From positions 1,674,001 through 1,738,000 of the forward strand of contig NZ_CP056080.1 of the NCBI RefSeq assembly GCF_014217215.1: 64,000 nt of DNA, read 5' to 3'. The DNA comes from Rothia nasimurium (GTDB taxonomy: Bacteria; Actinomycetota; Actinomycetes; Actinomycetales; Micrococcaceae). The position numbers and the translations under genes are program-made. Below, in pieces: positions 20,636 through 44,950 of the stretch. The notes beneath the pieces are model-generated. The model had not been told where the DNA came from. It saw nothing but the letters and a program-made list of their open reading frames with translations, and did no database searches. Position 1 is the first letter of the stretch; each line of letters begins with the position of its first letter.

Positions 20636-20816
20636 GCAGGCTCACAGCGAAGCTGCTGGCTCGATGGAGTGAGCGAGTGCGAGCGCGCGAGCACACAAGA
20701 GCGAACGAAATCCGCCGTTAGGCGGGGCGTGAGGGTCAGGCTTGCACCTATTCCGCCCGCAGATTTATTTCCTCGCGCGCTCGGAATCTGCTGGGCTCCA
20801 TCCAGCGTGAGCCTGC
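20636..20816 (-). repeat. structured intergenic repeat, copy A (after prpE)
   Basis: About 181 bp bounded by perfect 10-bp inverted arms, GCAGGCTCAC at 20636-20645 and GTGAGCCTGC at 20807-20816. Nested inside are GATGGAG (20663-20669) with CTCCATC (20796-20802), an 11-bp pair GAGCGCGCGAG (20681-20691) with CTCGCGCGCTC (20772-20782), and a small hairpin CCGCC-GTTA-GGCGG (20712-20725). It begins 16 bp after the prpE stop. A second copy (43330-43513), about 90% identical by eye, follows tyrS in the same orientation. It would fold as an RNA in the prpE 3' UTR. It matches no family I recognise. Confidence 0.85.
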
Positions 20817-20831
20817 GAAGCCCCTAATGAA

Positions 20832-22742
20832 TTAGCTACGCAGCACCTTAGTGATATCGTCCAGCACGCTCATATCTTCGATGGTGGAGGGCACGGTGTA
20901 CTGCTCGCCGTCGGCAATCTGGCGCATGGTCTTGCGCAGGATCTTGCCGGAGCGGGTCTTGGGCAGGCCGTCCACAATCTTGACGTCCTTGAAGTCGGCT
21001 ACCGCACCGATGTCATTGCGCACGCTGGCGATGAGTTCGGCAGCCAGCTGCTCTTCAGTGATGTCGGCACCGGCCTTGAGCACCACGTAGCCGGCGGGCC
21101 GCTGGCCCTTGAGCTGGTCAGCCACACCGATCACAGCGCACTCAGCGACATCCGGGTGGCCGGCGAGCACCTGCTCCATAGCACCGGTTGAGAGGCGGTG
21201 GCCCGATACGTTGATGACGTCATCCGTGCGCCCCATGACGAAGACGTAGCCGTCTTCATCGATGTAGCCAGAGTCGCCGGTGGTGTAGTAGCCGGGGAAG
21301 GCATCGAGGTAGGAGGAAATGTAGCGGTCGTCGTTGCCCCAGAGGGTGGGCAGGGTGCCCGGGGGCATGGGCAGTTTGATGGCAAGATTGCCCTCTTCGC
21401 CGGGGCCGACGGGCTCACCGAAGGGGTCAAGCACCTGCAGGTTGTAGCCGGGTGAAGGAACGGACGGAGAACCGGGCTTCAGAGGCAGGGCTTCCAAGCC
21501 GCGGGGGTTAGCCGCAATGGCCCAGCCAGTTTCGGTCTGCCACCAGTTATCGATCACAGGCACACCCAGTTTCTCGGTGGCCCAGTGGTAGGTTTCGGGA
21601 TCTAGGCGCTCACCGGCAACGAAGAGCAGCTGCAGGGAGGAAATATCGTAACCGCCGAGCAGCTCGGCTTCAGGATCAGCCTTGCGGATGGCTCGCAGGG
21701 CGGTAGGAGCTGTAAAGAGGGACTTGGCACCGGATTCCTGGATAACGCGCCAGAAGGCACCGGCATCCGGAGTGCCAACAGGCTTACCCTCGTATAGAAC
21801 GGTGGTTGCCCCGGCCAGCAGGGGGCCGTAGACAATGTAGGAGTGGCCCACAACCCAGCCCACGTCTGAGGCACACCACATTACTTCGCCGGGGCCCACG
21901 TTGTAAATATTTTTCATGGTCCAGGTCAGAGCTACGGCGTGACCACCGTTATCGCGCACTACACCCTTGGGAGAGCCCGTCGTGCCGGAGGTGTACAGAA
22001 TGTAGAGAGGGTCGGTGGCTTTCACCTCAACAGGCGCGTGTGGCTGGGCTGCCTCAACGGCCTGACCCCAATCGAGCCAGGTCACGCCGGTGGAGTTCTC
22101 TTCAGCCCGGCGCACCGCATCAGATACTGAGTTCTCAAATCCCTCACGCTCGAAGACCAGCACGGTCGCAGGCTTGGTCTGCGATAGCTCAATAGCCTTT
22201 TCTACAGCGGGAATGTATTCGATACGGCGCTTTGGTTCCACACCACCAGAAGCGGTTAGGACGACGGTGGGCGAGCAGTCGTTGATACGGCTAGCTAGTT
22301 CGTTGGGGGCAAAGCCGCCGAAGACCACCGAGTGCACGGCGCCCAGGCGGGCGACCGCCAGCATGGCCATGGCAGCCTGGGGAATCATGGGCATGTAGAT
22401 GAGTACGCGGTCGCCTTTTTCGACCCCGGCGGACGCGAGCGCCCCGGCAATTTTTTCTACCTCGTCTTTGAGTTCTGAGTAGGTGATGTTCTGGCGGGTG
22501 CCGAGCATAGCTGAGTCGTAGGTGATGGCGGTGCGATCGCCGTGGCCAGCTTCTACGTGGCGGTCAACGGCGTTGTAGCAGGTATTGAGGGTACCGTCGG
22601 GGAACCAGCGGTACAGAGGGGCAGCATCGCTATCGAGGGCGCGGGTTGGTTCGGTTGACCAGCTAATGGCCTGCGCCTGCTCTAGCCAGAACTCTTCCTG
22701 GTTTTCGATGCTGCGGTTGTAGGTATCAGCGTATGTTGCCAT
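20832..22742 (-). CDS. prpE: propionyl-CoA synthetase (acetyl-CoA synthetase family)
   Basis: A 636-residue acyl-CoA synthetase of the Acs/PrpE type. Seen are the P-loop YTSGTTGSPKG, WWQTETGW, YYTTGDSGYIDEDGYVFVMGRTDDVINVSGHRL, and the C-terminal PKTRSGKILRKTM, whose Lys is catalytic and a known acetylation site. It activates propionate as propionyl-AMP and then propionyl-CoA. Propionate rather than acetate is favoured because the gene is divergent from prpD-prpB-prpC and its GntR regulator, and because of the PrpE-like opening YNAVDRHV. RBS AAAGGAGC is 8 nt upstream. The promoter region holds two TTTTGTATACAAAA operators. Confidence 0.88.
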   Translation of the reverse strand: MATYADTYNRSIENQEEFWLEQAQAISWSTEPTRALDSDAAPLYRWFPDGTLNTCYNAVDRHVEAGHGDRTAITYDSAMLGTRQNITYSELKDEVEKIAGALASAGVEKGDRVLIYMPMIPQAAMAMLAVARLGAVHSVVFGGFAPNELASRINDCSPTVVLTASGGVEPKRRIEYIPAVEKAIELSQTKPATVLVFEREGFENSVSDAVRRAEENSTGVTWLDWGQAVEAAQPHAPVEVKATDPLYILYTSGTTGSPKGVVRDNGGHAVALTWTMKNIYNVGPGEVMWCASDVGWVVGHSYIVYGPLLAGATTVLYEGKPVGTPDAGAFWRVIQESGAKSLFTAPTALRAIRKADPEAELLGGYDISSLQLLFVAGERLDPETYHWATEKLGVPVIDNWWQTETGWAIAANPRGLEALPLKPGSPSVPSPGYNLQVLDPFGEPVGPGEEGNLAIKLPMPPGTLPTLWGNDDRYISSYLDAFPGYYTTGDSGYIDEDGYVFVMGRTDDVINVSGHRLSTGAMEQVLAGHPDVAECAVIGVADQLKGQRPAGYVVLKAGADITEEQLAAELIASVRNDIGAVADFKDVKIVDGLPKTRSGKILRKTMRQIADGEQYTVPSTIEDMSVLDDITKVLRS

Positions 22743-37268: not shown

Positions 37269-37291
37269 ATCTTCCTGTATCCCAATCAAAA

Positions 37292-37408
37292 ACCGGCGGT
37301 GACCTACTCTCCCACACCGTCACCAGTGCAGTACCATCGGCGCAAAGAGCCTTAACTTCCGGGTTCGGGATGGAACCGGGTGTTTCCCTCTCGCTATAAC
37401 CACCGTAA
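37292..37408 (-). rRNA. rrf: 5S ribosomal RNA
   Basis: The minus strand reads TTACGGTGGTTATAGCG at the start, contains CACCCGGTTCCATCCCGAAC, the highly conserved 5S loop B/C region, and ends GGTCACCGCCGG. Length is about 117 nt. It is last in the 16S-23S-5S order. Confidence 0.95.
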
Positions 37409-37516
37409 ACCTACGATGACCACCCCACACAAGGGGGGCAGCAATAACAAACCCAAGGGTTGTTATCTCAAAACCATACAGTGGACGCAAACAAAAACAA
37501 AACTCAGTCATAAAGT

Positions 37517-42516
<5,000 letters not shown>

Positions 42517-43329
42517 AAAATGAAGTAGTTGATGATCCTGGTCTCTGATTGTTAGCGAACCATTCACCACGGGGTGGTGTGGTTCAAGCTGACGAATCTG
42601 AAACCATATGATTATCAAATTCTGCAAGAAACCGTTGGTTTCTCACATTGTTATATAAATATTTGGTATCAGTTCAAGACCATAATCACTCCAGGACCGT
42701 TGTGGTCTTGGTATTGTGATGATGGACGATAAGAATGTTATTTATAACATTGGTACGCTATTGAGTTTTCAAGCAACAAACCGCATTCTCAACCCTAGCC
42801 AAATATTGGCCGGTGTTTCGTATCGGTCATTCTCAGTTTTTTATGCTACCCGCTTGGGCAACTCATTCACTCTATAATGCTTTTTCCATCATCGCAACTC
42901 GTTAGAGCGTGACGATAGCCACAAGCTCTTTTCTTTACTTCAAAGCCTTAGCTTCAAACCCGAAAACCAGTTCAATCAACTCTCCCTGGGAGTCTTTATC
43001 GACTCAACTTGTGGTGCACTATCCGATTATTTTTCGCTTTCGGCCGGTTCCCCGTGCCTCAGCGACTCGTTATACTTTACGCAGTTTTTTTGGAGCATGC
43101 AACCCGAACAGGGCTCTTTTTCCCTCAAAACACCACTCAAAGCCACACAATCAAAGGTATTTGCCCTAGTAAACAGCGGGTTAAATTTTCTCAAAAATAT
43201 TTTGAAAAAATTTTCTAGCCTCGCAGAACCTCACCCTGCCCTACCTCCGATTTCATTCGCTTTCACCGCTCTGACCAGGGTAAATAGCTAAATAACTGTT
43301 CTTGCTGAGGTATGTCTACAAGGTAAAGG
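42517..43329 (-). promoter_or_regulatory. rRNA operon leader and promoter region (gene-free)
   Basis: About 810 AT-rich bp between 16S and the structured repeat after tyrS. On the minus strand TTGCTTGAAAACTCAATAGC (around 42757-42776) is a boxA-like leader element echoed in the 16S-23S spacer. A weak promoter candidate is TTGCGA (42892-42897) with TATAGA (42871-42876), 15-bp spacer. Upstream AT-runs near 43170-43215 could be UP-like elements. No coding region is supported. Confidence 0.5.
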
Positions 43330-43513
43330 AAAAGCAGGCTCGCAGCGAAGCTGCTGGCTTCGATGAAGTGAGCGGGTGCGCCAGCACGCAAGAGCGAACG
43401 CAATCCGCCGTTAGGCGGGGCGTGAGGGTCAGGCTTACGCCTATTCCGCCCGCAGATTTATTTCCTCGTGCGCTCGGAATCTGCTGGGCTCCATCCAGCG
43501 CGAGCCTGCTTTT
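43330..43513 (-). repeat. structured intergenic repeat, copy B (after tyrS)
   Basis: Second copy of the element at 20636-20816. The terminal arms are 14 bp and perfect: AAAAGCAGGCTCGC (43330-43343) with GCGAGCCTGCTTTT (43500-43513). Compared with copy A, the ninth arm pair changes from A-T to G-C on both sides at once, so pairing is kept. GATGAAG (43362-43368) faces CTCCATC (43489-43495), which becomes a G-U wobble in the minus-strand RNA. It lies 12 bp after the tyrS stop, the same side and orientation as copy A after prpE. Confidence 0.85.
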
Positions 43514-43525
43514 CAACAACAGAAC

Positions 43526-44833
43526 TTACTGGGCAACCTCAATAACTGCCATGTTCTTCTTGCCGCGGCGAACTACCGCGTACTTGCCGAGAAGCAGGTC
43601 GGACTCAGTGAGGGCGGCGTCCTCGCCCTGTACCTTGACGTTGTTGATTGCAGCGCCACCTTCCTTGAGGGTGCGGCGGGCCTCGGACTTAGAAGCAGAA
43701 AGGCCAGTCTCGGTCAGTACAGTCACCATGTCTAGCTGGTCAGCTGAAAGTACCGCATGGGGCAGCTCGGCGGTAGCGGCCTTGAGGGTAGCCTCGTCCA
43801 GGGTAGCGAAATCGCCCTTGCCGAAGAGAGCCTCAGAAGCAGCGATTACCTTTTCGGTAGCCTCAACACCGTGTACCAGAGAGGTCACCTCGTAGGCCAG
43901 GATCTTCTGGGCTAGGCGCTTGAAGGGCTCTTCTTCAACAGACTTCTGCAGGGCAGCAATTTCGTCGCGGGTCTTGAAGGTGAAGACCTTGAGGCGGTCA
44001 GCTACGTCAGCGTCAGCGGTGTTCAGCCAGAACTGGTAGAAGGCATAGGGTGAGCACATCTCGGGGTCAAGCCAGATAGCGTTACCCTCAGACTTACCAA
44101 ACTTGGTGCCATCAGAGTTAGTAATGAGCGGGGTACCCAGGGCGTGGACAGATTTACCGGTGACCTTGCGTACCAGCTCGGTACCGCTGGTCAGGTTGCC
44201 CCACTGATCGGAGCCACCGCACTGAAGGGTTATGCCGTGGCGGCGGTTAAGTTCCAGGAAGTCATTGCCCTGCAGAATCTGGTAAGAGAACTCTGTGTAG
44301 GAGATGCCCTCTTCAGAGTTCAGGCGCTTAGCCACGATTTCCTTTTTAATCATGGTGCCCACGCGGAAGTTCTTACCGATTTCGCGCAGGAAATCGATGG
44401 CAGATAGTTCACTGGTCCAGTCCAGGTTATTAACCATCTGGGCCCCGTTCTCACCCTCAAAGGACAAGAAACGCTCAATCTGGCCGCGCAGACGGCTTAC
44501 CCAGCCCTCAACGACATCGCGCGAGTTGAGCACGCGCTCAGAGGTCTGGCGGGGATCACCAATCAGGCCGGTAGCACCGCCGACCAGGCCGAAGGGGCGG
44601 TGGCCAGCCAGCTGCAGACGACGCATGAGCAGCAGCTGGACCAGGTGCCCCAGGTGCAGGGAAGCTGCGGTGGGGTCGTAACCGATATAGAAGTTCACGG
44701 TCTCTTCAGCCAGCGCCTTCTCAAGGGCTTCTTCATCGGTGCTGACGTGCACAAAGCCACGCCACTTCAATTCCTGCCAGATATTCTCGAAGGAATCATC
44801 GTTGTGCTGAGCTGCAAGAGTCTCTTCAGACAC
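43526..44833 (-). CDS. tyrS: tyrosyl-tRNA synthetase
   Basis: A 435-residue class I synthetase. YIGYDPTAASLHLGHL carries the HIGH-type motif HLGH at 60-63; KFGKSEG is the KMSKS-type loop; QCGGSDQWGN binds substrate; the C-terminal ~70 residues are an S4 domain (SKSEARRTLKEGGAAINN). The frame is open to 44878, but the GTG at 44833 with GGAG 6 nt upstream fits the known N-terminus, and the extra 15 residues are hydrophobic and unrelated. No T-box leader was seen. It ends 12 bp before structured repeat copy B. Confidence 0.95.
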   Translation of the reverse strand: MSEETLAAQHNDDSFENIWQELKWRGFVHVSTDEEALEKALAEETVNFYIGYDPTAASLHLGHLVQLLLMRRLQLAGHRPFGLVGGATGLIGDPRQTSERVLNSRDVVEGWVSRLRGQIERFLSFEGENGAQMVNNLDWTSELSAIDFLREIGKNFRVGTMIKKEIVAKRLNSEEGISYTEFSYQILQGNDFLELNRRHGITLQCGGSDQWGNLTSGTELVRKVTGKSVHALGTPLITNSDGTKFGKSEGNAIWLDPEMCSPYAFYQFWLNTADADVADRLKVFTFKTRDEIAALQKSVEEEPFKRLAQKILAYEVTSLVHGVEATEKVIAASEALFGKGDFATLDEATLKAATAELPHAVLSADQLDMVTVLTETGLSASKSEARRTLKEGGAAINNVKVQGEDAALTESDLLLGKYAVVRRGKKNMAVIEVAQ

Positions 44834-44950
44834 GGTTACTCCATGGTTAGTAATGAACAAAAGCAGTGGCAAAGCCACCTCTACAAAGGTACCAGTTCAC
44901 CGCCGGGACGGGCAGCGGGCGCTTCCGGTGTTCTCTGATTGAGAGAAAGA

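Follow-up and report, generated by a model that had tools for sequence, protein, structure and literature searches.

The window examined here, a stretch of 64,000 nucleotides of the Rothia nasimurium genome, carries two copies (A and B) of a palindromic repeat, each placed just behind the stop codon of a minus-strand gene. The features assigned to the two loci are as follows, with positions in the window:

20636..20816, plus strand: copy A, a type I element of 181 bp, behind the prpE-like gene
20636..20645, plus strand: left arm of copy A, GCAGGCTCAC
20712..20725, plus strand: inner hairpin of copy A, CCGCC-GTTA-GGCGG
20755..20796, plus strand: inner hairpin of copy A, GCCCGCAGATT..AATCTGCTGGGC
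20807..20816, plus strand: right arm of copy A, GTGAGCCTGC
20832..22742, minus strand: prpE-like acyl-CoA synthetase gene, stop codon 15 bp from copy A
43334..43509, plus strand: copy B, a type I element of 176 bp, behind tyrS
43329..43343, plus strand: extended left arm of copy B, GAAAAGCAGGCTCGC
43448..43489, plus strand: inner hairpin of copy B, counterpart of 20755..20796 in copy A
43500..43514, plus strand: extended right arm of copy B, GCGAGCCTGCTTTTC
43526..44878, minus strand: tyrS, tyrosine--tRNA ligase gene, stop codon 16 bp from copy B

Copy A lies exactly where the initial annotation had placed it. The existence of copy B was also confirmed, its bounds, previously given as 43330-43513, being revised to 43334-43509, or to 43329-43514 with an A/T extension that gives the arms 15 perfect base pairs; read from the tyrS side, the stem is followed by TTTTCCTTT. 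The two copies are 91% identical (about 90% had been claimed) and, in agreement with the 12-16 bp stated earlier, lie 15 bp (copy A) and 16 bp (copy B) past the stop codons of prpE and tyrS, the latter distance being 11-12 bp when measured to the extended arm. They are separated by one 1-bp and one 6-bp indel, and their likeness stops at the edges of the repeat. Because these indels break the reading frame and the similarity ends with the repeat, duplication of a coding sequence was ruled out as the origin of the pair. The hairpin at 20755..20796 is the site of the motif most widely shared in the family (GATTCCGAGCGCGCGAGG, on the opposite strand). Copy A matched the structural model R2 with E=0.0013, and the same model covered only a part of copy B (E=0.15). 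As for the neighbouring genes, the prpE-like gene passes the NCBIfam cut-off for an acetate--CoA ligase subfamily and has its top score with propionate--CoA ligase, though below the cut-off of that family. An rRNA operon (5S, 23S and 16S, minus strand, positions 37291-42515) adjoins copy B.

Modules, distribution and gene context

The family to which both copies belong is modular. Its canonical types open with an arm like GCAGGCTCRC and close with the complement of that arm, and are composed of recurring modules that give either a minimal form or total sizes of about 95, 180 or 215 bp. In type I, to which copies A and B belong, the interior measures about 160 bp. Type III is about 97 bp in total, with the core GGCTGGCGTGAATC-[variable stem-loop]-GAGAGGGTC, and type II is a composite whose left half is that of type I and whose right half is that of type III, with one additional internal hairpin. 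The minimal form consists of GGCTCRCAGCGAGYGYGAGCC and its arms and nothing else. The pattern of this minimal hairpin was matched 29 times in 9 of 35 Rothia genomes, the reversed control pattern not once in the same 35. Inverted arms were retained in 102 of the 125 rows of the catalogue of copies (perfect arm of at least 8 bp, full flanks, duplicates removed). Beyond the shared arm, the stem may be prolonged by complementary extensions specific to the site, e.g. AGGTGAA/TTCACCT, ATAACGCG/CGCGTTAT and GGAAAGGT/ACCTTTCC. Such extension is not universal: across 91 copies, outer positions 4-7 pair at frequencies of 0.54-0.78 versus 0.31-0.65 with shuffled partners, and positions 1-3 are less clear (0.33-0.45 versus 0.26-0.30). 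The loops of the inner hairpins are of the form GNNA or GNA in 61 of 63, 33 of 33 and 97 of 101 cases in the 125-row catalogue. The first of these counts refers to the CCGCC-GTTA-GGCGG hairpin, whose loop is GNNA in the 61 copies; in 34 of them the third base is a pyrimidine, so that these loops are not GNRA. Loops of the GNA and GNNA kinds are unusually stable and favoured in hairpins of single-stranded DNA.

Several irregular arrangements were seen besides. Three tandem units of 99 bp (L020-L022, at 1400353-1400582 of the host contig C1) each contain, of the element, nothing but the inner e hairpin, together with a copy of an apparent gene 3' end with its stop codon. Partial copies at L017, L042, L044 and L049 (about positions 1450-1600) appear by eye to be flanked by direct duplications of a gene end of some 20-60 bp. 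At L048, from a Rothia sp., a core-only copy (about 1370-1545) adjoins an apparent tRNA gene whose 3' end occurs inverted in the flank. The copies at L001, L014, L018, L025 and L093 are nested in an additional palindrome like GAGGCTTATTCATAAGGGG that surrounds them and perhaps represents a second repeat family.

The genome search for further copies proposed by the initial annotation recovered, with copy A as query and copy A itself included, at least 40 matches in the host genome (2.53 Mb in three contigs), which is a lower bound, since 40 of the 51 first-look candidates were scored. With this number of matches, and E values at other loci down to 1e-82, a chance origin is excluded. Eight of the matches are full-length at 91-100% identity, and many others share one part only. 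The same search over 59 genomes, the host genome among them, gave 25 with matches, every one Rothia, and none of the 24 genomes outside Rothia matched. A scan of 35 Rothia genomes with a second model, describing the structure of the commonest subtype and scoring at most 119 candidates per genome, yielded 703 matches in 20 of them, 47 in the host genome. The most widely shared inner motif was found in 63 stretches of a collection of named genomes, 62 in records titled Rothia (R. nasimurium, nasisuis, endophytica, mucilaginosa, aeria, avicola and unnamed species) and the remaining one in a Micrococcaceae metagenome-assembled genome. The first model was run over 297 genomes of the order, on the best 13 candidates of each listed genome and with strict filters by which weak relatives could be missed, and matched three, all Rothia. 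An exact pattern of the core occurs 17 times in the host genome and is absent from the other 395 genomes of a sample of the phylum. Among the genomes searched, the family thus appears confined to Rothia, the only genus in which it was seen.

The initial annotation had recognised no family, and Rfam likewise gave nothing above the gathering cut-off for the 64-kb window; five loci searched to E=5 gave four weak matches, all below the cut-offs. Carriage by phages or plasmids was rejected when a type III copy matched neither collection, from which records close to the genome of the window may have been left out, and twelve pattern matches on viral contigs, in which the stem was missing by eye, appear to be due to chance. 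In the portions accessible to us of the literature on Rothia, palindromes, repeats, terminators, tetraloops and SbcCD, no account of such an element was found.

The description of the repeat as dispersed, structured and settling behind genes was borne out, positions being counted against gene calls from a purpose-made simple codon score and no published gene finder. Of the host copies with clean arms, 20 of 24 lie within 60 bp of a stop codon (median 20 bp), and the gaps holding these 24 copies are tandem in 11 cases, convergent in 10, divergent in none and unclassified in three, as compared with 17 tandem, five divergent and four convergent among the gaps of at least 40 bp in the window. When all genomes are taken together, 84 of 102 copies (orthologues included) lie within 60 bp of a stop codon and two are in divergent gaps. 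Relative to the nearest gene, eight copies of the host genome are in sense and 12 in antisense orientation; in the 102-copy set, again with orthologues, the numbers are 31 and 53. A hand tally of 33 copies on contig C1 of the host gave 24 against and nine with the direction of replication, on the assumption of an origin at the contig ends, where DnaA boxes are found, and a terminus opposite.

Covariation and strand asymmetry

At the ninth arm position copy A has A/T and copy B has G/C, as had been pointed out from the two copies; among 39 type I copies this pair is A-T in 19, G-C in 14, G-T in five and A-C in one. The covariation test called for in the initial annotation was carried out with a covariance model built from 26 type III copies, which also found more copies in distant Rothia species. 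In alignment A3 (39 matches), which like the second alignment consists of related copies fitted to the model and is thus biased towards it, 97.5% of the cells are paired and 24 of 30 pairs show two-sided changes; none of 500 shuffles reached any of the measures, and sliding the partner lowered the pairing to 38% or less. Alignment A4 (73 matches, 59 of them distinct) gave 95.8% paired cells and two-sided changes in 25 of 30 pairs. The compensatory pairing of the arms is real and general. In the inner arms, the variable pair of GATGRAG/CTYCATC is A/C in 25 of 38 type I copies, A/T in 10 and G/C in three, so that the inner arm is much less strictly kept than the outer one.

In types II and III, the strand on which the a-module comes first folds better in 25 of 25, 15 of 15 and 12 of 12 copies, and its imperfect pairs are G-U in 97 cases versus A-C in eight, or 32 versus eight after removal of two constitutive G-U pairs, counts that come from related and not independent copies. 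In type I the bias is weaker (27 of 38), and the finding of A-C in the inner arm of 25 of 38 copies speaks against a plus-strand rule for this type. The one-sided excess of G-U suggests that in types II and III a single-stranded form is of importance; given an orientation towards genes that is neutral in the host genome, it may be the element, and not the adjacent gene, that is served by this form.

These observations bear most directly on the possibility that the repeat is a structured RNA with a function for the host in 3'-end processing, stability or protein binding, each copy being held by selection, with the core UGGC..GGGCUGGCGUGAAUC-[stem]-GAGAGGG conserved between two freely varying stems. 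The very strong covariation in both alignments and the plus-strand bias of types II and III speak for such an RNA, as does G017, from another Rothia species, where the core is conserved in 10 copies whose arms are mutually unlike and yet complementary. However, with both orientations about equally used in the host genome, transcription from the nearest gene will often produce the strand that is not favoured; moreover, types I, II, III and the minimal form replace one another at one site, type I and the minimal form are without the exact core, the strand bias is lower in type I, and no Rfam family matched. On balance, a host RNA of this kind seems doubtful to us.

The covariation has also to be weighed against a purely mutational origin, in which template switching during replication makes and repairs perfect hairpins that have neither mobility nor function. 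Template switching is reported, in the part of the publication available to us, to create perfect stems together with multibase compensatory changes (PMC8794818), and the left arm at C1:1320666 resembles by eye an inverted copy of host sequence found in G027. Since stems can be made and repaired in this manner, compensatory changes in the arms alone do not prove an RNA function. As a complete account, however, such a by-product is very improbable, leaving unexplained both why the same interiors, about 70-190 bp long, recur at dozens of sites unrelated to one another and why they lie just past stop codons.

Turnover of interiors at orthologous sites

The 158 distinct entries were grouped into sites by both flanks, the relatives being mostly draft assemblies and the sites those retrieved from them. 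Forty sites are present in at least two genomes; 11 hold a single type and 29 different types, a few of which (e.g. ag versus afg) may be calling noise, the type strings having come from fuzzy motif matching. Twelve of the 40 sites combine a minimal form in one genome with a full form in another, and at seven the element occurs in opposite orientations. In a strict arm test the 14 bases outside the shared arm were compared and at least 10 had to match on both sides, a requirement passed by 96 of 2956 unrelated pairs. By this test 33 of the 40 sites keep their outer arms between at least two genomes, including 22 with different types, eight with minimal and full forms and one with opposite orientations. 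With the threshold raised to 11 of 14, 32 sites are kept, of which 20 show different types, seven minimal and full forms and none an inversion. Each site has an outer stem of its own that is often kept between species, and it is the interior at that site that is exchanged or lost. Replacement of the interior inside a kept stem is well supported by these comparisons, and alternation of minimal and full forms inside a kept stem is supported. Widespread inversion in place, considered at first from the seven sites, was rejected, because L006 alone among them retains its outer arms and most could be separate insertions.

At L006, a locus of the host genome, the stem GGAAAGGTAGGCTCGC holds type I one way in G000 and the other way in G012, type III in each direction in G028 and G027, and a longer form in G011. 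Other arms are found there in G002 and G026, and no element modules in G014, G005 and G018. The initial proposal of a cis-acting 3'-UTR RNA is, as it was stated, unsupported, because both orientations towards genes are about equally used in the host genome and one site carries the interior both ways in the same stem. The tyrS site holds type I in three genomes and type III in one; in five close genomes, G027, G012, G014, G026 and G005, an unrelated GC-rich hairpin occupies the same place. At the prpE site, type I, type III and minimal forms occur, and the outer stem fails the strict arm test between minimal and full forms. In G032 and G033 (L060, L061) an unrelated long hairpin lies at the same spot of the prpE end, which therefore seems to be a general hairpin site.

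The interiors of the 39 type I copies are nearly as similar between sites as within them: 93.6% identity at the same site (22 pairs), versus 93.1% at different sites within a genome (85 pairs) and 92.6% between genomes (634 pairs). The effect of the site is weak (permutation p=0.06; for genome, p=0.07). Between G000 and G028, the flanks of the tyrS site are 98.4 and 99.6% identical and the interior 90.7%, and at another site the interiors are 100% identical. In the least fragmented pair, G000 and G027, a comparison that took in only part of the host-genome sites, seven comparable sites gave three changes of type, three unchanged and one opposite orientation (L096, with changed inner arms); in addition, L026 has a full and a minimal-like form and L102 is unchanged. 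Host copies at L019, L095 and L099 are absent in G027, and those at L318, L325 and L094 are broken there. At L322 (1343-1564; C1:1320666 of the host) two elements stand adjacent in opposite directions, the second being absent in G027; the left arm of this second element resembles, by eye, an inverted copy of the host sequence to its right.

Turnover of this kind could also arise if the repeat were a non-autonomous mobile element, of the MITE or single-stranded-DNA type, moved by a putative palindrome-targeting enzyme of Rothia, the differing interiors at one site then being repeated insertions into a hotspot. The inverted arms, the high copy number, presence and absence at orthologous sites, and opposite orientations with differing outer arms at the same gene end would all fit, the minimal hairpins could be empty targets, and the GNA and GNNA loops are of a kind stable in single-stranded DNA. 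Direct repeats of at least 12 bp between the flanks, as a target-site duplication would leave, were however found in none of the 102 copies. Symmetric repeats of 4-9 bp were near the shuffled values, except for k=6 (four versus 0.7 expected), and these four cases comprise three different words at different offsets, so that neither long nor short target-site duplications are credible. The search for mobility enzymes covered two families, and neither is present in the host genome: Y1 transposase (RAYT-type, Y1_Tnp) occurs in three of 35 Rothia genomes and reverse transcriptase (RVT_1) in four of 35, three of them over the cut-off. Of the earlier suggestion of a MITE-like repeat, the inverted arms have stood; the missing duplication, the absence of the two enzymes from the host genome and the differences in interior between species at stem-kept sites have gone against it, and we would not expect differences inside kept stems from an ordinary MITE. 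An enzyme-driven mobile element is accordingly judged rather unlikely.

As for the minimal hairpins, the scar GGCTCRCAGCGYGAGCC predicted for slippage deletion of type I was not found in 12 genomes, so that they are not scars left by type I. Either ancestral empty stems or deletion products of types II and III through the direct repeat CAGCGA could account for them.

Proposed copying between hairpin loops and comparison with known systems

The reading that we tentatively favour, and whose probability we place a little short of even, is that of a Rothia-specific palindromic family whose cassettes are copied between the loops of terminator-like hairpins behind genes. Its basis was observed directly, namely dispersal, position, structure, covariation and differing interiors in kept stems, together with the alternation of minimal and full forms and one site whose stem encloses the interior in either orientation. 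The exchange would be triggered by a break, or by stalling of a polymerase, at the tip of the hairpin, and interiors would then be copied ectopically from one hairpin to another with the same arm sequence. Because cutting a palindrome leaves two ends alike in sequence, insertion of a donor interior could take place in either direction. Such copying would account for replaced interiors, for minimal and full alternation and for the one clean inversion. SbcCD, which cuts palindromes in Escherichia coli, may take part in cutting the element, and template switching may supply the site-specific arms. The stem itself would serve the host as a bidirectional terminator or as a hairpin at the mRNA 3' end, and with this putative role a cassette could be tolerated there. 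Both the moving enzyme and the host function are what we infer.

The copying model has its limits. The sequence shared where an exchange ends may amount to no more than 10-12 bp, which is short for RecA-type conversion; in addition, 11 of the 40 sites hold a single type, and the better folding of types II and III on one strand is not needed by a pure double-strand conversion. A related possibility, to which we give a low probability, is that the element, in a structured single-stranded form, enters the loops of terminator hairpins already present and uses the host stem for its outer helix, or has this stem made by fold-back copying, and spreads by host break repair with no dedicated enzyme.

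Dispersed palindromes located behind genes are common in bacteria, and how they spread and how their stems are kept perfect is often unclear. In Rothia, many orthologous sites amount to before-and-after pairs, with the same stem and flanks and a different or missing interior, so that the mechanism of spreading can be tested directly within one genus, and so can the assumption that an RNA function is always proved by compensatory changes.

Among known repeats, REP sequences are for the most part situated past the ends of coding regions, in the gaps of co-directional and convergent gene pairs, according to the accessible parts of two reports (PMC3116915, PMC3733652). The Rothia element resembles the REP, BIME and REPIN repeats associated with RAYT in being an extragenic hairpin palindrome present in many copies behind genes, but it is longer and modular, its interiors differ inside kept stems, and its host genome is without a Y1 (RAYT-type) transposase. 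A comparison can also be made with intrinsic terminators, which share with it a stable hairpin, located within about 50-60 bp of the stop codon in 20 of 24 host copies, with A- and T-tracts around the stem in some copies (GAAAAGC..GCTTTTC in copy B); the element differs by the repeated, structured interior in its loop, and its role as a terminator is putative. MITE-like repeats such as Correia/NEMIS, RUP and ERIC are structured intergenic elements of about 100-220 bp with inverted arms. Size, arms, intergenic location and structure are thus held in common with them, whereas in the Rothia element no target-site duplication was found, the arms are partly site-specific and the types are replaced in place. 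Group IIC introns insert behind terminators and so show a similar preference for sites behind genes near terminator stems; the Rothia element is far too short to be one of them, has no Rfam intron match, and its host genome has no reverse transcriptase. What makes the Rothia element unusual among dispersed palindromic intergenic repeats is that its interiors are replaced inside stems that are kept.
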